Shown: positions 7,789-64,000 of the stretch, piece after piece
Layout: every line of letters begins with the position of its first letter
Position numbering within the stretch: position 1 is the first letter of the stretch
Assembly (NCBI RefSeq): GCF_002224645.1
Contig: NZ_CP022121.1
Span: 1,990,501-2,054,500 of the forward strand
Length of the DNA stretch: 64,000 nucleotides
From: Dehalobacterium formicoaceticum
Lineage (GTDB): Bacteria > Bacillota > Dehalobacteriia > Dehalobacteriales > Dehalobacteriaceae
Direction: 5' to 3'
Notes under the pieces: model-generated
What the model saw: only the letters and a program-made list of their open reading frames with translations
Databases searched by the model: none
What the model was told of the DNA's origin: nothing
Position numbers and translations under genes: made by a program

Positions 7789-8078
7789 GCGAAAACACCT
7801 TTATGGGTGTACCCAGAGACAAAATTGACTGGGCCCCTACCATTGACTATACCAGGTGTGACTATTGTATGGAATGTGATATCTTTTGTCCCCATCAAGT
7901 CTTTGAAAGAAGAGAGCAGGAAGATAAAAAGCTGATCGTGAAGAACCCCAATAACTGCGTGGTGTTCTGCCGGGCATGCAGTAAGACTTGCGGTCCGGAT
8001 GCCCTGTCCTTTCCTAATAAAGCAGAAACCACGAAACGCATCAAGGAAATCAGGAAGGAGTTAGCGGGTAATGACTAA
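7785..8078 (+). CDS. 2[4Fe-4S] ferredoxin-type protein
   Basis: A 97-residue dicluster ferredoxin. Eight cysteines are arranged as CDYCMECDIFCP (about 26-37) and CVVFCRACSKTCGPDALSFP (about 62-81), enough for two [4Fe-4S] clusters. The second cluster motif has a three-residue first gap. The GTG start at 7785 overlaps the preceding stop, with GGAGGAAG upstream, and the stop overlaps the next gene's start. Translation is therefore probably coupled. It is the likely electron carrier between the HdrA-like protein, the lipoyl protein and an outside donor or acceptor. Confidence 0.85.
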   Translation: MSENTFMGVPRDKIDWAPTIDYTRCDYCMECDIFCPHQVFERREQEDKKLIVKNPNNCVVFCRACSKTCGPDALSFPNKAETTKRIKEIRKELAGND

Positions 8079-8949
8079 AAAATATACTGTGCTCCCCTGC
8101 AGCGGGATCGATAAAACGGCAGGCTCCATGTCACGGGAAATTGCCCTGCGGCTTGCCGAAGAGACCAAAAGCGAGGTTATCTGCCCCGTTTTTTACCGGG
8201 TGTCTGATGCTCGTTACAATAAACTGGCCCAGGAGAACCCCCTGCTGGTCATCGATGGCTGCGGCACCCGTTGTGCTTCCAAGCTGGCCGCCGAAAAGGG
8301 ACTAAAGATTGCCGGGAAAATCAATATTACTGAGGGAGCTAAGAAAAACCAGGTGGAAATTGGTTCATCACTGAGATTGGGTGAAAAGGAACTCCATTTA
8401 TGTACGTTGATCATGCATGACCTGCTGCAAGAAGAAGCAAAGACCGGAGAAGAAGAAAAAACAGCGGGCAAAGAGGCTCAGGCAGCCGGGGCAGTCCCGG
8501 AAAATATTCAATATGAGAAATACTCCAAAGATAAATTCATTTTCCGCATCCCCAAGGAAGGATTTTATTTTATCGAAAATGACTGCTGGGCTTATGTGGT
8601 GGGTAATAAGGCGCGCATCGGGGTGACCGATTTTGTGCAAAAAAGCCTGTCGGATATTATGTTTTTTACCCCTCCTGCCGTGGGGCGTGAAATTGAGCAA
8701 TTTGAGGAGGCCGGGTCCATTGAATCAGGAAAAGCCGTCTTCGAAATCATCTGTCCCGTTTCCGGCGTCATCACAGCTGTAAATCAAGAACTGCTGGATT
8801 ATCCCGAATATATCAATGACAATCCTTATGAAAAAGGATGGATCGCGGAGCTGGAGTTAACAGATTTTGAGAGTGACAAGGAACTCCTGGTTGGTTTTGA
8901 TGCATATTTTGAGATTTTGAAGAGGAAGGTTGATGAATTCCATGTCTAA
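8071..8949 (+). CDS. DGC-domain protein fused to a GcvH-like lipoyl domain
   Basis: Two-domain protein of 292 residues. The N-terminal part (about 1-115) is a DGC domain (putative zinc-binding family), seen as VLPCSGIDKTAGSM, VICPVFY and VIDGCGTRCASKLA. After an Ala/Glu-rich linker (near 130-145) comes a domain resembling glycine cleavage H protein: WAYVVGNKARIGVTDFVQ, then PAVGREIEQFEEAGSIESGK with Lys221 in the place of the lipoylated lysine, then CPVSGVITAVN and NPYEKGWIAELE. This implies a lipoyl swinging arm tethered to a cysteine/metal domain. The dihydrolipoyl dehydrogenase of the same operon is the obvious redox partner. This combination is unusual. The substrate is unknown. Confidence 0.8.
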   Translation: MTKKYTVLPCSGIDKTAGSMSREIALRLAEETKSEVICPVFYRVSDARYNKLAQENPLLVIDGCGTRCASKLAAEKGLKIAGKINITEGAKKNQVEIGSSLRLGEKELHLCTLIMHDLLQEEAKTGEEEKTAGKEAQAAGAVPENIQYEKYSKDKFIFRIPKEGFYFIENDCWAYVVGNKARIGVTDFVQKSLSDIMFFTPPAVGREIEQFEEAGSIESGKAVFEIICPVSGVITAVNQELLDYPEYINDNPYEKGWIAELELTDFESDKELLVGFDAYFEILKRKVDEFHV

Positions 8950-9343
8950 CAAAGTAAATGTGATCCCCTGCAGCGGGATGGGCAAAGTGCACGGACTGCT
9001 GGCCCGGGAAATGGCTTTAAAGGTTGTTCAGGAACTCTGTCCGGATATTTCCCAAACTGAGTGCCTGGCCTACATTGTCACCGGCGACCAGGAGGTCAGG
9101 AACAAAATTCGAACCGGTCAATGTATCACCATCGACGGCTGCCCTCTGATGTGTGCGGCAAAAAGCGTTAATCATGCCGGCGGTGTTATTGCCCAGGAAC
9201 TTCGCGTCTTGGATGCCTTAAAATCATATCGGGGGGTAAAACCGGGTACCGCCACAGCCCTTAATGAAGAAGGCTGGAAAATCGTGGACGAGACAGCAGA
9301 AAAAATTGCAATGCAAGTAAAAGAGATTTACGGGGAGGAATAG
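8942..9343 (+). CDS. DGC-domain putative zinc-binding protein (second copy)
   Basis: A stand-alone DGC-domain protein of 133 residues. Cysteine landmarks are VIPCSGMGKVHGLL near the N-terminus, LCPDISQTECLAYI, and TIDGCPLMCAAKSVNHAGG. These resemble the N-terminal domain of the preceding fusion protein and the next gene. ATG 8942, inside the end of the upstream gene, is preferred, but TTG 8930 and ATG 8933 are in frame and the AGAGGAAGG site fits none perfectly. Overlap implies translational coupling. The family is thought to bind zinc; no activity is known. Confidence 0.72.
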   Translation: MSNKVNVIPCSGMGKVHGLLAREMALKVVQELCPDISQTECLAYIVTGDQEVRNKIRTGQCITIDGCPLMCAAKSVNHAGGVIAQELRVLDALKSYRGVKPGTATALNEEGWKIVDETAEKIAMQVKEIYGEE

Positions 9344-9346
9344 AAA

Positions 9347-9766
9347 ATGGAACCGATCAAAATTGGGGTCGTATCTTGCAGCGGTGAAGATTGCCTGGGT
9401 GGGACCATTTCCCGCTTGGCAACGAGAAAGATTTTAGAGAGAATCCGTCTTGGTGAATCATCGGTAACCATTTGCCTACCTTTGTTTATTGCCGGCGGAG
9501 AAGAAGAAAGAGATTTTGCCAAAGATTACCCCACAATTACAGTCGACGGCTGCAACAAATATTGCGCCAGAAGGGCCACGGAGAAATTAAGCGGTAAGGT
9601 AACCGACACGATACAAGTGGGGGAGATAATCGGTGAGGAAATAGCAACAGGGTCGGCTCTTTCTACCAGAAACCTGACCCCAGAACACCATCAAATGGCG
9701 GATAAAGTTGCTGAGGAGATCAGTATTAAATTTGACCGGATTGTAGAAGGAAACTTCAAAAAATAG
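9347..9766 (+). CDS. DGC-domain putative zinc-binding protein (third copy)
   Basis: Third DGC-domain protein of the operon, 139 residues. It keeps VVSCSGEDCLGGTIS near the N-terminus, TICLPLFIAGG and TVDGCNKYCARRA. The IDGC motif of its sisters is VDGC here. It starts four bases after the upstream stop, with GGGGAGGAATAG as ribosome site. Three divergent paralogues side by side suggest a hetero-oligomer rather than redundancy, but this is inference. It is the last gene of the operon; no strong terminator was found in the following 228 bases, only a weak stem near 9828-9855. Confidence 0.72.
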   Translation: MEPIKIGVVSCSGEDCLGGTISRLATRKILERIRLGESSVTICLPLFIAGGEEERDFAKDYPTITVDGCNKYCARRATEKLSGKVTDTIQVGEIIGEEIATGSALSTRNLTPEHHQMADKVAEEISIKFDRIVEGNFKK

Positions 9767-9994: not shown

Positions 9995-10372
9995 TTGGAT
10001 AAAGGAATCTATCAAGCATTCAAGGCTCTGGGCGAACCTACCCGTTTGAAGATTATAAAAATGCTTTCCTATCAGGCCATGTGTGTCTGTGAACTGAGTG
10101 AAGTCTTAGATATGCTCCAGCCCAGGGTTTCCCAACACTTAAAGATTCTGAAAGATGCCGAACTGGTGGCAGAAAACAAAGAAGGAAATTTTGTTTGTTA
10201 TACCTTAAATCGGGATCAGCTGGATCAGTTGTGGCATGACTTTAATTTTTTCCTGAATGCGGAGGTTTCACGTTTGCCGGGTTATGAAAAGGAAAGTGAC
10301 CGCTTAAATAATTTATCATGCAACGAAAAAGTTAAAGAAATCAAGGAAAAATTAAAAAGTGAAAGCAGATGA
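9995..10372 (+). CDS. ArsR/SmtB-family transcriptional repressor
   Basis: Winged-helix regulator of 125 residues. The helix-turn-helix spans about 15-75 (ALGEPTRLKIIKML, then LQPRVSQHLKIL with the recognition helix). The MCVCEL segment near 30-35 matches the CxC metal-binding site of ArsR/CadC-type sensors, so release by a soft metal or metalloid is plausible. TTG 9995 is the apparent start with GAGAGTG upstream. It lies just downstream of the lipoyl/DGC operon, but no operator was identified. Regulation of that operon is only a suggestion from position. Confidence 0.82.
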   Translation: MDKGIYQAFKALGEPTRLKIIKMLSYQAMCVCELSEVLDMLQPRVSQHLKILKDAELVAENKEGNFVCYTLNRDQLDQLWHDFNFFLNAEVSRLPGYEKESDRLNNLSCNEKVKEIKEKLKSESR

Positions 10373-56756: not shown

Positions 56757-57926
56757 CTAAAGCCATCTGGCAGGTTCCATTTCAATAAATGCAGATATTC
56801 TTGTTTTAATCTGGCCCAGGTCGGATTTTGAATAATCTGTTTCAATGGACATGTGTGGCAGCCCGGCATCATTAACAAGCTCCTTGATTGTTTTCGTTTC
56901 TACACTATAAGGGTGACAAGTCTGTAAAATGACTTCAATTACACCTTCAATTTTAAATTCTTTAAGTAATTCAGGAAGCATTTCCATTCGTCTTGGATTA
57001 GGTGACATGACAGAGCAGCCTATTTTCAGATAGCGGTCAGCAATTGCACTGACAATGTCTTCTGTATTTTCATCCACTAGATGCCTTACAGGCTTGACAC
57101 CGCCACAATTTTCAAAGCAAACAACTACACCGCCATTGTTTTCAATAGTATTTACAACCTTGTCAAGAACACCACCTATGGGACAGCCCGTCACCAGTAT
57201 TCTTTTTGCTTCCGCGGCAACCGGTCTGTCGCCGGCTTCATAAGCATTTTTTGTGTTATCTATCAGTTCACGAAGTTTTATGCAGGTTTCTTCCACATCA
57301 AAGCTGAAGCCAGAGCCTTCAATCACCTTGTACACATCAAAGCCCCTGATTGGAGGTGGATCCAATTTACTCAATTCAAAAAGCTCGTTAAATATTTTCC
57401 TCTGTTTGTTTCTGAGAGATACAGCCTTTCTAAGCTTTTCTTCTGTGATATCAACTTGGAATTTTTCCTCCATGGTCTTGATCAAACGATGTAATTCACT
57501 TTCCCACATTTTATGAGCATATTCTCTATCAACCCCCTGAGGCAATTGCATAATATATGTATCTTTGATTTCACCTAAAAGCTCATACATTTTCTTTTTT
57601 CCATCGCAAGTTGTCTCACCTATTATAATATCGGCAAAATAAGTGTAAGGGCATTTTTCGGTTAATGCAAAACCGTAACTGGATTTGATCAAGGGACACA
57701 AATTTTTTGGAAGGTCTGTTTCGGCATCAATTATAGTTTCTTCACTCATTCCACATAATCCCACAGAGAAAATGCCTGCTGCATCTAATATTTCAGATGG
57801 AGTAAAGGTGCAAAAAACGCCTGCTATCTTACCTCCATTTTCTTTTATTTCCTTTACCTTCAGAAATCCTTGCCTTCTGGCATCAGCAAATTCTTCAAAT
57901 TTATTTGGCAAATTTACGATTGACAT
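56757..57926 (-). CDS. 2-hydroxyacyl-CoA dehydratase family protein (double-cubane-like), copy 1
   Basis: Protein of 389 residues in the HgdB/FldC superfamily, whose members bind iron-sulfur clusters for difficult low-potential reductions. Cysteines occur in AGVFCTFTP, GLCGMS, NLCPLIKSSYG, KCPYTY, ETTCDGKKKMYELLG, VCFENCGG and QTCHPYS. It most resembles the stand-alone, double-cubane cluster type rather than a two-subunit dehydratase, since only one subunit-like gene and no activator ATPase is found here. It reads away from the Sec cluster across a 270-base gap. A paralogue lies inside that cluster at 62253. A role as reductase for the system is inference. Confidence 0.85.
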   Translation of the reverse strand: MSIVNLPNKFEEFADARRQGFLKVKEIKENGGKIAGVFCTFTPSEILDAAGIFSVGLCGMSEETIIDAETDLPKNLCPLIKSSYGFALTEKCPYTYFADIIIGETTCDGKKKMYELLGEIKDTYIMQLPQGVDREYAHKMWESELHRLIKTMEEKFQVDITEEKLRKAVSLRNKQRKIFNELFELSKLDPPPIRGFDVYKVIEGSGFSFDVEETCIKLRELIDNTKNAYEAGDRPVAAEAKRILVTGCPIGGVLDKVVNTIENNGGVVVCFENCGGVKPVRHLVDENTEDIVSAIADRYLKIGCSVMSPNPRRMEMLPELLKEFKIEGVIEVILQTCHPYSVETKTIKELVNDAGLPHMSIETDYSKSDLGQIKTRISAFIEMEPARWL

Positions 57927-58197: not shown

Positions 58198-58452
58198 ATG
58201 AGCAAACCTTTTATTGAATATATCAGTGCTTGTGCCTGATGTGAAGTATTCGGAGAATTCGTGAAATCTCTCGCAGAACAATATCAAGGACAAATTAAAG
58301 TAACAATCTATAAAGTCGGAGAAGACTTTGATTACATAAAAAAATATGGCCCTACTACCAAGAGCATGTTGATCATCAATGAATCAAGAGTAGTAACAAA
58401 GTTAAGCAAGGAATCCATACGAAAAGCATTTGAGGAGGTATTAAAAGATTGA
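58198..58452 (+). CDS. saoT: Selenocysteine thioredoxin-like protein (SaoT-like; UGA at 58237-58239)
   Basis: Small 84-residue protein with Sec at position 14. From ATG 58198 (AAGGGGGAG upstream) it reads MSKPFIEYISACA-Sec-CEVFGEFVKSL. The remainder fits a thioredoxin-like fold (KVTIYKVGEDFDYIKKYG, then TTKSMLIINESRVV). The active site is C-A-U-C. Ordinary calling would give only a 63-residue fragment from GTG 58261. GTATTC-GGA-GAATTC shortly after the UGA could be a minimal SECIS. The next gene overlaps its stop. The Sao name is from memory of family annotation and could not be checked. Probable role: reducing or passing on a soft metal or organometal bound to Cys/Sec. Confidence 0.85.
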
Positions 58453-59552
58453 TCCTGGAGTTCTGGGAGTTCTTAGTCAGTATTTTCTATTCTACTATCA
58501 ATATGTTGAACAGTGCATCTGTATGGATGGTTGTGAGTTTTGGTATTGCTGGAATATTCCATGCGTATATGAGTCCGGAAAGGATGCGCAAAAGCAGTGT
58601 CGGCAGCACAAGGCTTTCCGGTGTTCTATGGACAACGATTGCCGGCACGGCCGTACCCATTTGCAGCTGTGGCAGTACTCCTTTGGGCATCAGCTTATAT
58701 TATTCTGGTGCTTATTTAGGCCCCACCCTGGCATTTATGACCTCCACGCCGGTGCTTAATCCTGTGGCTATTATCCTGACCTGGGGATTATTGGGGAAGG
58801 AAGTTGCGCTTATTAATATTATCACCGGACTTACGGTTCCGGTGATTGTGGGAATCATTGGCAATAAATTTGCCGGAGAAGAACTTCATATCAAAGACTT
58901 GCCTGATGGGACGGAAAGAAAAACCCTTATTTTTGATGAACCTTCACATTTTGAAAAGATCAAAGCAGGTCTGAAGTGGTCCTATACGGAACTGGCCGTA
59001 ACCATTTCTAAATATATGGTGTCCGGCCTTTTGGTCGCCGGGGTGATTTTTAACATCGTCCCTCAATCTTTCATCCAGACTTATTTAGGGAATCCCGGGT
59101 TTATATCTCTCCTGGGCATCACCCTTGTTGCTGCCTTGATGTATGTGTGTGCGGTTGGTCATATTCCAATGATTGCAGCTATCGTAGCCAGCGGTGCGGC
59201 ACCGGGGGTAGCTATTACCTTTCTCATGGCAGGAGCGGCGACAAATATTCCGGAGCTTTTGACGATATCTAAAACTATTGGCAAAAGAGCAATGATTATT
59301 TTTCTGATAACCCTTGCGGTTTTATCCAATGTGGCCGGATATATTACCAACCTTTTGTTAATGCCAGGTTTTGAACCAGTCTTGGATTTTGATGCCACCT
59401 CCCGAACCGTAGAAACAGCCAATAAGCTGATTTTTGTCCAGCCGGAATGGTTGCAATATGCGTGTACGTCTATATTGGTAGCTTACGCATTATACTCTTT
59501 ATTTAAATTGATTAAAGGAGAAACAGCGAAACATCTGCCTACAGGAAGATGA
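58449..59552 (+). CDS. saoE: ArsP-like permease (SaoE-like efflux transporter)
   Basis: Integral membrane permease of 367 residues with about eight or more hydrophobic segments. The segment PICSCGSTPLGISLYYSGAY near 71 is the family's conserved cysteine region, and TSTPVLNPVAIILTWGLLGK near 97 also fits ArsP/DUF318 permeases, some of which export trivalent organoarsenicals. TTG 58449 overlaps the saoT stop. The second half has AVGHIPMIAAIVASGAAPGVAI and NIPELLTI. Export of an organometal after capture by Sec proteins is inferred from neighbours. The symbol is from memory. Confidence 0.75.
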   Translation: MILEFWEFLVSIFYSTINMLNSASVWMVVSFGIAGIFHAYMSPERMRKSSVGSTRLSGVLWTTIAGTAVPICSCGSTPLGISLYYSGAYLGPTLAFMTSTPVLNPVAIILTWGLLGKEVALINIITGLTVPVIVGIIGNKFAGEELHIKDLPDGTERKTLIFDEPSHFEKIKAGLKWSYTELAVTISKYMVSGLLVAGVIFNIVPQSFIQTYLGNPGFISLLGITLVAALMYVCAVGHIPMIAAIVASGAAPGVAITFLMAGAATNIPELLTISKTIGKRAMIIFLITLAVLSNVAGYITNLLLMPGFEPVLDFDATSRTVETANKLIFVQPEWLQYACTSILVAYALYSLFKLIKGETAKHLPTGR

Positions 59553-59559
59553 GGAGAAT

Positions 59560-60078
59560 ATGAACAATAAATTCTTGAAAAATATTTTATCGATTATTAT
59601 TGTGGTGGCGGTGGCCTTTGCCGCAAAGCAATATCTGGAAGCCAGGGAAGAAAGAAAATATCAGGATCAAACAGCCTGGATGGGAGGGGAAGGAAAAGAC
59701 TTTGCGGTAATGGTGCCGGAGGATAACCGAGCCTTGCAGTATTTCAAGGAAGAATTTCCTGCCCGGGAAGTGATTTTGGCTTGTGCGGAAGACATTACCG
59801 ATGATCAACTGCAGGATCTGCTGGTCATCTATCGGGAAAATGAACATACCAGGCTGGCAGCCCTGATCGATAAAGGGGAGGGGCATTGGTATATATCCCC
59901 TGAGATACCGGCCCCCATAGAAAATCAGACGATACGGTTCAAGAATATCGACAAAGAGGCAGAAATGGAGTTTATCATTACCGGAGAAAAAGAAGGAGCG
60001 GTGGGATATGCCGTTTACCGTATGATCGATGGGGAAATCAAGGATCTCTTTGGAGAAGGAATGGCAGATTGTTGTTAA
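59560..60078 (+). CDS. saoC: Membrane-anchored protein ending in Cys-Cys (SaoC-like)
   Basis: A 172-residue protein with an N-terminal signal anchor (KNILSIIIVVAVAFAAKQYL) and an otherwise soluble, extracytoplasmic domain. It has a single Cys at ILACAEDITDDQL, and its last residues are GMADCC, so the chain ends with adjacent cysteines. Some members of what I recall as the Cys-Cys-COOH (seleno)protein SaoC family have Sec there; this copy has Cys. GAGGAGA precedes ATG 59560. A terminal vicinal thiol on a flexible tail is a plausible soft-metal carrier. Function is inferred from the system only. Confidence 0.72.
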   Translation: MNNKFLKNILSIIIVVAVAFAAKQYLEAREERKYQDQTAWMGGEGKDFAVMVPEDNRALQYFKEEFPAREVILACAEDITDDQLQDLLVIYRENEHTRLAALIDKGEGHWYISPEIPAPIENQTIRFKNIDKEAEMEFIITGEKEGAVGYAVYRMIDGEIKDLFGEGMADCC

Positions 60079-60104: not shown

Positions 60105-60902
60105 ATGAGTATAAATAAGAGGATATTTTTTGTCATGGTCACAGCTCTAATTGCTGTTTTTTTCACAATCTCCTTGCTGCCCAGTGATACCGGTCGAAGT
60201 GATCGGGGAAATGTCTTACGTGTTGGCGCAGGTGATGATACCAGCGGTTTGCTTCTGGATCAGATTGGAAAGATTGGTAGAGATTCAGGCAGTAAAACTG
60301 AGATTGTTTATAATGATTTAAATATGGAGGGCTATAAGTTCTTGGATTGTTGAAGTAATACCTCCCAATGGGCCTTGAGCTCAGACGAAATCGATATGGG
60401 CTTTTACTGCAATCATAAAGCTATTCATATGGTCAAAGCAAATGATCGTTTTGTAATTTATGGGCCGGTCATCATGAATTCAGAGGTGCTGGCCTACAAG
60501 GGTAACATTGTGGATCAGCAAGTGCTGGGCATCGGCCAGGATCGAAAACATATCTGGGAGCAGGTACGAAAAAGCTACCCCAATATCAAGGAAACTCAGG
60601 AAATGGTCGTGGCAGCATTGGGATATACCTTAGAAAATAAGCAGATAGATATAGCGGCTATTGATGTCAGCAAAGCGGCACTATTATCGAAATACAACTT
60701 CGCTCCTATTTCTCAGGAGGATTATATTTCATACAGCCTGATAGTACGAAAGGATTTAATCGATACAGAAGCCTTTGATAATTTTCTTGTTAGTTATAAC
60801 AAAGCAGTAGAAGAATTAAATAAAAAAGAAACAATGATTTCAGTCATGGGAATGACCAAAGAATTTTGGGATATGGTTAACTTAAAATTCTTAGAATTAT
60901 AA
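60105..60902 (+). CDS. saoB: Selenocysteine ABC substrate-binding protein (SaoB-like; UGA at 60351-60353)
   Basis: Periplasmic-type binding protein of the nitrate/taurine/sulfonate family, 265 residues. There is an N-terminal signal or anchor (RIFFVMVTALIAVFFTISLL), then residues GNVLRVGAGDDTSGLLLDQI. The TGA at 60351 follows a cysteine: KFLDC-Sec-SNTSQWALSSDEIDMGF. After it the frame runs without break to the TAA at 60902. Both pieces are incomplete alone and together match the family's two-lobe length. The Cys82-Sec83 pair would bind a soft metal or organometal. Conventional annotation would give two fragments (60105-60353 and 60375-60902). It lies before the ABC ATPase. Confidence 0.85.
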
Positions 60903-60919
60903 GTTAGGAAGTGTATGAA

Positions 60920-61792
60920 ATGTCAATATCAGTTAGAGGGATTACAAAAGAATTTAAAAACAAAAGAGAAAAAAACAAAAGTCAACTTGTATTAAAGGAT
61001 ATCTCTTTTGATGTGGAGGAGGGGGAATTTGTTACCCTGCTCGGTCCTTCCGGTTGTGGCAAGACAACAACACTAACCATTATCGCAGGTTTTCAGAAAT
61101 ATAATGGAGGAAAAATATTGATCAATGGGAATGTGGTTAACAAACCAGGTCCGGACAGGGCTTTTGTATTCCAAAACTATGCTCTTTTTCCGTGGATGAA
61201 AGTGGGAGAAAACATTATGTATCCTATGAAAAAGAGGAAGATACCAAAAAAGGATAGGATAAATAAGCTAAAAGAACTATTGGAGATGGCGCAGCTAGAA
61301 GGTTATGAAAATTACTTTGTTCATGAATTATCCGGCGGCATGAAGCAAAGAGTTGCCCTGCTTCGTGCCTTGGCTTGTGAGCCTCAGGTACTACTTATGG
61401 ACGAACCTCTTGGGGCAGTTGATTTTCAAATGAGGAAGCTTCTGCAAATGCAATTGGAGACTATTTTACAGAAAAAAAATGTGACGGTATTGATGGTAAC
61501 ACATGATGTGGATGAGGCAATTTATTTAAGTGACAGGGTGATCATCATGTCCAGGGATCATGGCAGGCTTTTAGGAGATATTAAAGTTGATTTGCCCCGA
61601 CCCAGAGATAGGAACTGTGATATGTATCATAACTATATGAGTCAATTGACAGAAATACTGAAATCAGCATTAAATGGTGATGTTAAAAATAAAGAGGATG
61701 AAGATCTAATGGACTTCATAAAAAAGAACGAGCATAAAAGTGATGATGCAACAACCAGGCTAGATCAAAGCAAAAAGCTTGAAAATTGTTAA
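60920..61792 (+). CDS. saoA: ABC transporter ATP-binding protein (SaoA-like)
   Basis: ATPase of the nitrate/sulfonate/taurine importer family, 290 residues. It has Walker A LLGPSGCGKTTT near 41, Q-loop FVFQNYALFPWMKV near 83, signature ELSGGMKQRVALLRALA near 136, Walker B LLMDEPLGAVDFQ near 159, and the H-loop VTHDVDEAIYLSDR. A charged C-terminal extension of about 40 residues follows the core. ATG 60920 fits AGGAAG; GTG 60911 is also in frame. It should pair with the permease at 63431 and the Sec binding protein just upstream. Confidence 0.85.
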   Translation: MSISVRGITKEFKNKREKNKSQLVLKDISFDVEEGEFVTLLGPSGCGKTTTLTIIAGFQKYNGGKILINGNVVNKPGPDRAFVFQNYALFPWMKVGENIMYPMKKRKIPKKDRINKLKELLEMAQLEGYENYFVHELSGGMKQRVALLRALACEPQVLLMDEPLGAVDFQMRKLLQMQLETILQKKNVTVLMVTHDVDEAIYLSDRVIIMSRDHGRLLGDIKVDLPRPRDRNCDMYHNYMSQLTEILKSALNGDVKNKEDEDLMDFIKKNEHKSDDATTRLDQSKKLENC

Positions 61793-61836: not shown

Positions 61837-62169
61837 ATGAGAGTGGCCTATGTATTTGAATCAGTTTACGCAAGAGAGATCCTGGAAAACATGATTATTC
61901 CCCAACTGGAGAAAGGTGACCATGGGGCTGAAGTAGCAGGTATGATGTTCTTTTTTGATAACACATATATGCTGCAAAAGGACAGCGATATTGCTAAGAG
62001 ACTGTCGGCCATCAGCGAAAAGTCAGGAATGCTTCTGATGGCTTGTGATAGGTGCTGTTATCAAAGAGAGATTGACGACAAGTTAATAGAACCTGCTGGA
62101 ATCGGTTGTTTCCCTAATTTGTATGCTGCCTTGAGCGGAGCAAACATTGATCAGGTTATCACTCTCTAG
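61837..62169 (+). CDS. saoD: DsrE-like protein (SaoD-like)
   Basis: Small 110-residue cytoplasmic protein with a DsrE-type alpha/beta pattern (RVAYVFESVYAREILENMI at the start, AGMMFFFDNTYML near 34). The region MACDRCCYQREIDDK near 67-81 has three closely spaced cysteines, plus Cys near IGCFPNLYAALS. DsrE relatives carry sulfur or other groups on a cysteine. ATG 61837 follows AAAGGAGATAG; the longer frame from 61786 overlaps saoA and lacks a site. Handling of a metal or organic group within the Sec cluster is likely but unproven. Confidence 0.75.
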   Translation: MRVAYVFESVYAREILENMIIPQLEKGDHGAEVAGMMFFFDNTYMLQKDSDIAKRLSAISEKSGMLLMACDRCCYQREIDDKLIEPAGIGCFPNLYAALSGANIDQVITL

Positions 62170-62252
62170 TAAAAGAGGGCAGGGCTTATGCCTACCTTTT
62201 TTACAATTAGGTTGTAAATAATGAAACAAGATTTAAGGGGTGATATTGTTTG

Positions 62253-63425
62253 ATGACATTACCTGAACGTTTTGATGAATTTGCGGAGGCACGGCGTAAC
62301 GGATTTTTAAAGGTCATGGAATTGAAGGAGAGCGGTGCCAATATCTGCGGCAGCTTTTGTCAGTATGCCCCAGCAGAGGTTATTTACGCTGCCGGACTTT
62401 ACAAAGTCAGTCTTTGTGGTAAGAGCAACGCCCCCATCGCAACAGCAGAGACCCATTTACCGGCAAATTTGTGTCCCCTGATCAAGGCAAGCTATGGTCA
62501 TGCCTTGGAAGATAGTTGTCCATATGCCTATTTTTCTGATGTTGTGGTTGGTGAAACCACCTGCGATGGGAAAAAGAAAATGTATGAATTGCTGGGAAAG
62601 CTCAAACCGATGCAAGTCATTCATTTACCCAACGTACCGGACAAAGAGCGCTCATTAGATGCTTGGGTAAAGGAAATCAAGCATTTTAAGGAAGCCTTGG
62701 AAGAACGATTTGATGTGGAAATCACAGATGAAAAACTTCATGAAGCAATAAAGTGGTGCAATAAGGAGCGCATTCAGGCGGCACGCATCTATGAGCTTGG
62801 CAGATATGACCCACCTGCCATTACCGGCTTGGATATGCGCAATGTGATGGATGGCGAACAGTATATGTTCAATAAATATGAAAAATATGAAAAGCTCAAA
62901 CAGATTTTAGATGAATGTGAAGAAAATTGGAAAAATGGCAATGGCCCTTACAAACCGAATGCAAAACCACCACGAATTTTGATATCAGGTGCCGGATTGG
63001 GGGGCGTTGTAGATAAGACTATTGCTGTTATTGAAGAACTGGGGGGAGCAATTGTTTGCTATGAGGGCTGCAGCGGTATCGTTTCACGCCGACGCCTCGT
63101 CGATGAATCTGACGAGAGAGACCCCATTACCTGCATTGCAGAAAAATACTTGGAGGTACCATGTGCGGTGATGTCTCCCAATCACAATCGCATGAGTCAG
63201 ATTGAGGCAACCATCGCAGAATGGCAGGTGGAAGGTCTGATTAATATTACACTGCACTCCTGCTTGCCCTTTGGTATTGAGTCGTGTAACATCGAAAAAG
63301 TCTGCAAGAAATGCCATACTCCTTATCTTCACATCGAAACGGATTTTTCTACCGGTGATGCGGGACAAATACGCACGCGTATTGAGGCATTTCTGGAAAT
63401 GGTCCTGGAAAGGAGACTAATGTAA
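62253..63425 (+). CDS. 2-hydroxyacyl-CoA dehydratase family protein (double-cubane-like), copy 2
   Basis: Paralogue of the minus-strand protein at 56757-57926, 390 residues. Cysteines lie in ANICGSFCQYAP, SLCGKSN, NLCPLIKASYG, SCPYAY, ETTCDGKKKMYELLG, VCYEGCSG, ITCIAEKY and LHSCLPFG, nearly the same pattern as copy 1. The segment ETTCDGKKKMYELLG is identical in both. ATG 62253 or TTG 62250 can be the start, both near AAGGGG. Placement between saoD and the ABC permease shows it belongs to the system. A low-potential electron source for cleaving or reducing the substrate is my inference. Confidence 0.85.
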   Translation: MTLPERFDEFAEARRNGFLKVMELKESGANICGSFCQYAPAEVIYAAGLYKVSLCGKSNAPIATAETHLPANLCPLIKASYGHALEDSCPYAYFSDVVVGETTCDGKKKMYELLGKLKPMQVIHLPNVPDKERSLDAWVKEIKHFKEALEERFDVEITDEKLHEAIKWCNKERIQAARIYELGRYDPPAITGLDMRNVMDGEQYMFNKYEKYEKLKQILDECEENWKNGNGPYKPNAKPPRILISGAGLGGVVDKTIAVIEELGGAIVCYEGCSGIVSRRRLVDESDERDPITCIAEKYLEVPCAVMSPNHNRMSQIEATIAEWQVEGLINITLHSCLPFGIESCNIEKVCKKCHTPYLHIETDFSTGDAGQIRTRIEAFLEMVLERRLM

Positions 63426-63430
63426 CATTA

Positions 63431-64000
63431 ATGGCTAATAAAGCAGACAGAGATATGGATCGGATGCTGCAATCGACCAAGATGACAGACAGACGTAATT
63501 TCCGAAATATGGTGGGGGAAAGCTACTATTTTTCCTTTGTGATAGCCTTACTGGTTCTGGCTGCCATGTGGTATTTTGCAGCTCATAGGGTCGACAAACC
63601 CTTTACCTTCCCATATCTGGAAAGTGTTATATATGAATTAGTTACGGCCCTGGCAGACCTGCATGTTATTAGGAGCTTCGGCATCACCATGCGTCGTGTC
63701 TTAATTGGGGTATGTTATGCAACACTCTTTGGATTCCCCTTAGGTATGCTGATGGGCTATTCGCGCCTGGTCATGCAAACCATCGCCCCCTTTATCAACT
63801 CACTACGTCAGATTCCCACCACTTCTTGGGTGCCCCTGGCGATCATATGGTTTGGATTAGGGGACGGCCCCACGATTTTTGTGATTACGTTTAATGCAAT
63901 TTTCACAATCATTCTTAATACGGTAGCAGGGGTGCAAAGTATCCAAAGTGATTTTTACAATGCAGCCCGCAGTATGGGCGCCAACACCTTGGATTTGGTA
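63431..64000 (+). CDS. saoP: ABC transporter permease, SsuC/TauC type (SaoP-like), cut at window end
   Basis: First 190 codons of a permease that continues past the window. Membrane segments start near residue 38 (FVIALLVLAAMWYFAAH). GVCYATLFGFPLGMLMGYS near 94, PTTSWVPLAIIWFGLGDGPT near 133 and the EAA-like loop NAARSMGANTLDLV at the end are typical of nitrate/sulfonate/taurine permeases. The ATG 63431 lacks a strong site at ideal distance. It should form the transporter with the ATPase (60920) and the Sec binding protein (60105). Genes beyond the end may include more of the cluster. Confidence 0.82.
   Translation, partial: MANKADRDMDRMLQSTKMTDRRNFRNMVGESYYFSFVIALLVLAAMWYFAAHRVDKPFTFPYLESVIYELVTALADLHVIRSFGITMRRVLIGVCYATLFGFPLGMLMGYSRLVMQTIAPFINSLRQIPTTSWVPLAIIWFGLGDGPTIFVITFNAIFTIILNTVAGVQSIQSDFYNAARSMGANTLDLV

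Follow-up and report, generated by a model that had tools for sequence, protein, structure and literature searches.

The SAO (Sec-assisted organometallic) system was described by Haft and Gwadz in 2023 (J Bacteriol 205:e00259-22, as cited in PMC13188914). A 2026 review (PMC13188914) presents one of its components, SaoB, as a predicted selenoprotein assigned to NF040727, with the motif CUxxT, in which Sec may be a metal ligand. As this review names SaoB and NF040727 and cites the SAO description, the protein analysed here is of a known kind, and both SaoB and its gene cluster are already known, in the literature and in the NCBI models. Two other groups of proteins serve as comparison. The alkylmercury lyase MerB, whose active-site cysteines are numbered Cys96 and Cys159 (PMC4525700), resembles SaoL. 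The NMT1/SsuA/TauA-type binding proteins and the TauBC/SsuBC transporters have relatives in SaoA, SaoP and SaoX.

We analysed a window of 64,000 nucleotides from the Dehalobacterium formicoaceticum genome. Reading of the open reading frame places saoB between an ATG at 60105 and a TAA at 60900-60902, that is 265 codons interrupted by a single in-frame TGA, with 82 codons on its 5' side and 182 on its 3' side. These numbers are exactly those of the preliminary description, which had reported the two halves in register with no further stop. The N-terminal portion of the protein is a hydrophobic segment. Three Cys/Sec residues, and no more, occur in SaoB: Cys82, Sec83 and Cys102. Their columns are invariant among the homologues, and the sequence C82-U83-S-N-T86 fits the reviewed CUxxT motif. 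The pair had been described as Sec-Cys: Sec does adjoin a Cys, but the Cys comes first and the order is Cys-Sec. Such a pair in a binding protein, then called very unusual, is unusual indeed, but it has already been published. Coordinates and profile scores are collected in the table below.

Features of the sao locus (positions in the window; those beyond its end are given on L007)
Feature	Position	Strand	Evidence or remark
Second double-cubane-cluster reductase, divergent from saoT	56757-57926	-	NF040772, 514.6 bits; kept next to sao in related loci
saoT, thioredoxin-like selenoprotein, motif C-A-U-C	58198-58452 (TGA 58237-58239)	+	NF040730, 102.9 bits (cut-off 65)
saoE, ArsP-type efflux permease	58449-59552	+	NF040736, 520.5 bits (cut-off 325); PF03773
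saoC, membrane-anchored, C-terminus Cys-Cys-COOH (Cys form here)	59560-60078	+	NF040734, 183.9 bits (cut-off 80)
saoB, ABC transporter substrate-binding selenoprotein, 265 aa with Sec83	60105-60902	+	NF040727, 245.7 bits (curated cut-off 140); alignment of 11 homologues
Sec codon TGA, residue 83, after Cys82	60351-60353	+	TGA in 3 and Cys in 8 homologues; the rest of the D-C-X motif is invariant
Candidate bacterial SECIS hairpin, UGGGC-CUUGA-GCUCA	60369-60383	+	Identical in the 3 TGA genes; energy not above background
Cys102 codon, sole other Cys of SaoB	60408-60410	+	Invariant in 11 homologues
saoA, ABC ATPase	60911-61792	+	NF040729, 433.9 bits (cut-off 360)
saoD, DsrE-related protein	61837-62169	+	NF040732, 189.2 bits (cut-off 169)
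Double-cubane-cluster anaerobic reductase, between saoD and saoP	62250-63425	+	NF040772, 465.7 bits (cut-off 350)
saoP, ABC permease, cut by the window end	63431-64000, on to L007:7431-8258	+	NF040733, 333.1 bits with TGA read through (cut-off 295)
saoL, MerB-like lyase, past the window end	L007:10207-10830		TGA at L007:10693 (U163), preceded by Cys
Activase of double-cubane reductase	L007:10974-11741	-

For protein searches the TGA was entered as Cys, standing for Sec. The equivalog model NF040727, named 'ABC transporter substrate-binding (seleno)protein SaoB', was matched by the read-through protein across positions 2-260 of 262. With this match, the CU motif, the SAO neighbourhood and the exchange of Sec and Cys among relatives, it is a plain member of the family and differs from it in nothing within the protein itself. 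The earlier assignment to ABC substrate-binding proteins agrees with this curated family, and the proposal of a thiophilic substrate agrees with both the curated SaoB and the published SAO context. The substrate-binding role itself, for which a two-lobed periplasmic-binding fold would be expected, is suggested by the operon context and the curated family name. Sequence and profile searches matched SaoB to no Pfam family and to no PDB chain. In this, and in its CU/CC plus Cys102 motif, it differs from the NMT1/SsuA/TauA-type proteins. An AlphaFold model computed from a two-sequence input, a shallow alignment, had a pLDDT of 41. Viral contigs yielded no relatives.

We aligned 11 SaoB sequences. 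Of 399 genomes sampled from the phylum, 9, this one included, gave matches above the cut-off; one more genome of the same family and a Lutispora MAG found by a genome-contig scan were added to these. D81, C82, the column of residue 83 and C102 are kept in all 11. Residue 83 is encoded by TGA in three sequences (the window, L046 and L026, which include a second Bacillota genome and the Lutispora MAG) and is Cys in the other eight. The SaoB proteins of the two other TGA-bearing genomes show 80% and 62% identity, and pairing the three TGA genes gives a dN/dS of 0.10-0.14 for saoB codons 84-265, which indicates purifying selection. The genome also encodes the selenocysteine machinery, with SelA, SelB, SelD and a tRNA-Sec with a TCA anticodon; the selD gene itself has an in-frame TGA (L049, genome position C1:806763-807683). 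The alignment called for in the preliminary description thus returned TGA or Cys at every position of the column, and its reading of the UGA as Sec holds.

By the bSECISearch consensus, a bacterial SECIS hairpin is located 16-37 nt downstream of its UGA, and we searched this interval past each UGA by folding, consensus folding and a hairpin scan. Hairpin energies were within background for saoB and for most other sao UGAs. The weak candidate listed for saoB places its apical loop 20 nt past the TGA and shows no covariation among the three sequences available. Third-position (synonymous) conservation shows no more than a slight rise 3' of the UGA (P 0.04-0.16). The lack of a SECIS above background would suit a true stop in a pseudogene or a sequencing error, but the same UGA occurs in three genomes with Cys in eight others, the downstream part is under purifying selection and the genome holds Sec genes, which makes this reading extremely improbable. 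Conservation and dN/dS dismiss the pseudogene, the sequencing error and the two-gene reading alike. As the same column is TGA in two other genomes and Cys in eight, and as the 3' part is under purifying selection, the TGA is not there by chance. Homologues, selection, machinery and operon company suffice for the Sec call without need of a SECIS: as judged from sequence comparison, the saoB TGA is a genuine selenocysteine codon.

Profile searches placed all nine SAO families above their own curated cut-offs, in a cluster that spans the window end. The genes are ordered SaoT, E, C, B, A, D and P in the window, followed by SaoX and SaoL just past its end; the series is broken only where a double-cubane reductase separates SaoD from SaoP and where a gene for a putative Se/S carrier-like protein (PF11823, L007:9666-9935) lies between SaoX and SaoL. 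The sao genes are also clustered in ten other genomes, where some loci are truncated. Four of the genes here, saoB, saoT, saoP and saoL, contain an in-frame TGA, and the positions concerned in SaoT, SaoP and SaoL are Cys in relatives. SaoT homologues mostly have CPCC or CSCC at the C-A-U-C site, and UPGC in L041; standard gene calling retains just a 63-codon 3' piece of saoT. The TGA of saoP encodes Sec219 (window-equivalent 64085, L007:8085) in the context V-U-A-E-F, a residue that is Cys in five relatives and TGA in four. Taken together, that the gene is the saoB of a complete SAO operon and that its UGA is decoded as Sec is in our view very likely. Elsewhere in the window, three consecutive genes (8071-9766) encode proteins with repeated CSG and DGC/DGCP/DGCN motifs, and adjoin a gene for an ArsR-like regulator (9995-10372).

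SaoL matches the MerB domain PF03243. Its comparison with MerB2 (5c17) scored 42.5 bits and puts C100, D103 and U163 on the positions of the C-x-x-D/S ... C pattern, C100 and U163 having the 63-residue spacing of Cys96 and Cys159 of MerB. SaoL thus shares with the alkylmercury lyase the catalytic pattern C-x-x-D ... C/U, its spacing and the Pfam domain, but similarity is low, and SaoL has Sec in place of the second catalytic Cys, with a Cys before it. Residue 163 is Cys in two relatives and TGA in one. The NCBIfam match of SaoL stops at residue 162, right before the Sec, and truncated annotations are therefore likely.

If the UGA is read as Sec, the product would be a membrane-anchored extracytoplasmic binding protein whose Cys82, Sec83 and Cys102 may grip a thiophilic organometal cation, for example an organomercurial, and pass it to the ABC importer SaoP/SaoA. 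SaoX would act as a second binding protein, capturing the soft organometal outside the membrane, and SaoT, SaoC and SaoD could be thiol/selenol relays of metal or electrons. By its homology to MerB, SaoL would cleave the carbon-metal bond, and SaoE would expel the freed metal. The organometal-capture mechanism, considered on its own, is somewhat favoured. Organic mercury-like compounds are probably captured by a SaoB-type binding protein, and direct coordination of the substrate by the Cys-Sec pair, as first proposed, may be part of it. Adjacent Cys and Sec are also able to form a selenylsulfide, and the operon includes a thioredoxin-like selenoprotein, SaoT, which might recycle the pair; Cys-Sec could then be redox-active, as a selenylsulfide switch or a reductase, rather than a metal ligand. 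Most homologues, however, have Cys-Cys and an invariant third Cys102, resembling soft-metal ligation, and the operon contains a MerB-like lyase and an efflux permease, so that we regard a redox role as unlikely. Less probable still is that the cluster serves selenium supply by handling organoselenium or a different organic chalcogen compound, instead of an organometal. The Se/S-carrier-like gene and the double-cubane reductases in the cluster would fit such a supply, as would the presence of sao genes in gene clusters proposed for methyl-selenium metabolism, whereas the MerB active-site pattern retained in SaoL and an ArsP-type efflux permease suited to metal or metalloid disposal speak for the organometal.

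The double-cubane reductases themselves are recurrent neighbours. In 7 of the 8 genomes with enough flanking sequence (G000, G003, G069, G116, G220, G342 and G412), NF040772 genes and sao genes are no more than about 10 kb apart, the eighth, G203, having no double-cubane reductase gene within that distance; two further genomes with contigs too short were left out of this count, one of which, G235, has a fragment of such a gene at its contig end. The Lutispora locus also has a double-cubane reductase near sao, and the activase is usually present across the linked loci. By simple arithmetic rather than a formal test, chance co-location would be about 1-3% per genome, for a 20-25 kb region, 1-3 strong copies and a genome of 2-4 Mb. 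The recurrent proximity supports a functional link. Other authors place both double-cubane and sao genes among the selenium-related genes of methyltransferase clusters; the linkage is strong and less documented than the SAO system itself. On a speculative reading, which we hold to be less likely than not, the reductase and its ATP-dependent activase would be regular SAO partners supplying electrons of very low potential, which might for instance serve to reduce the metal once freed or to detach it from selenol ligands. If so, SAO would be a reductive, not purely hydrolytic, organometal pathway.

The raw sequence and the DNA of homologues confirm the use of selenocysteine by a transporter binding protein, and SaoB is joined in one pathway by three more Sec proteins, SaoT, SaoP and SaoL. 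All four genes come out split or truncated from ordinary gene calling. If the proposed function is true, anaerobes would employ selenium in the capture and cleavage of organometals, a matter of relevance to mercury cycling.
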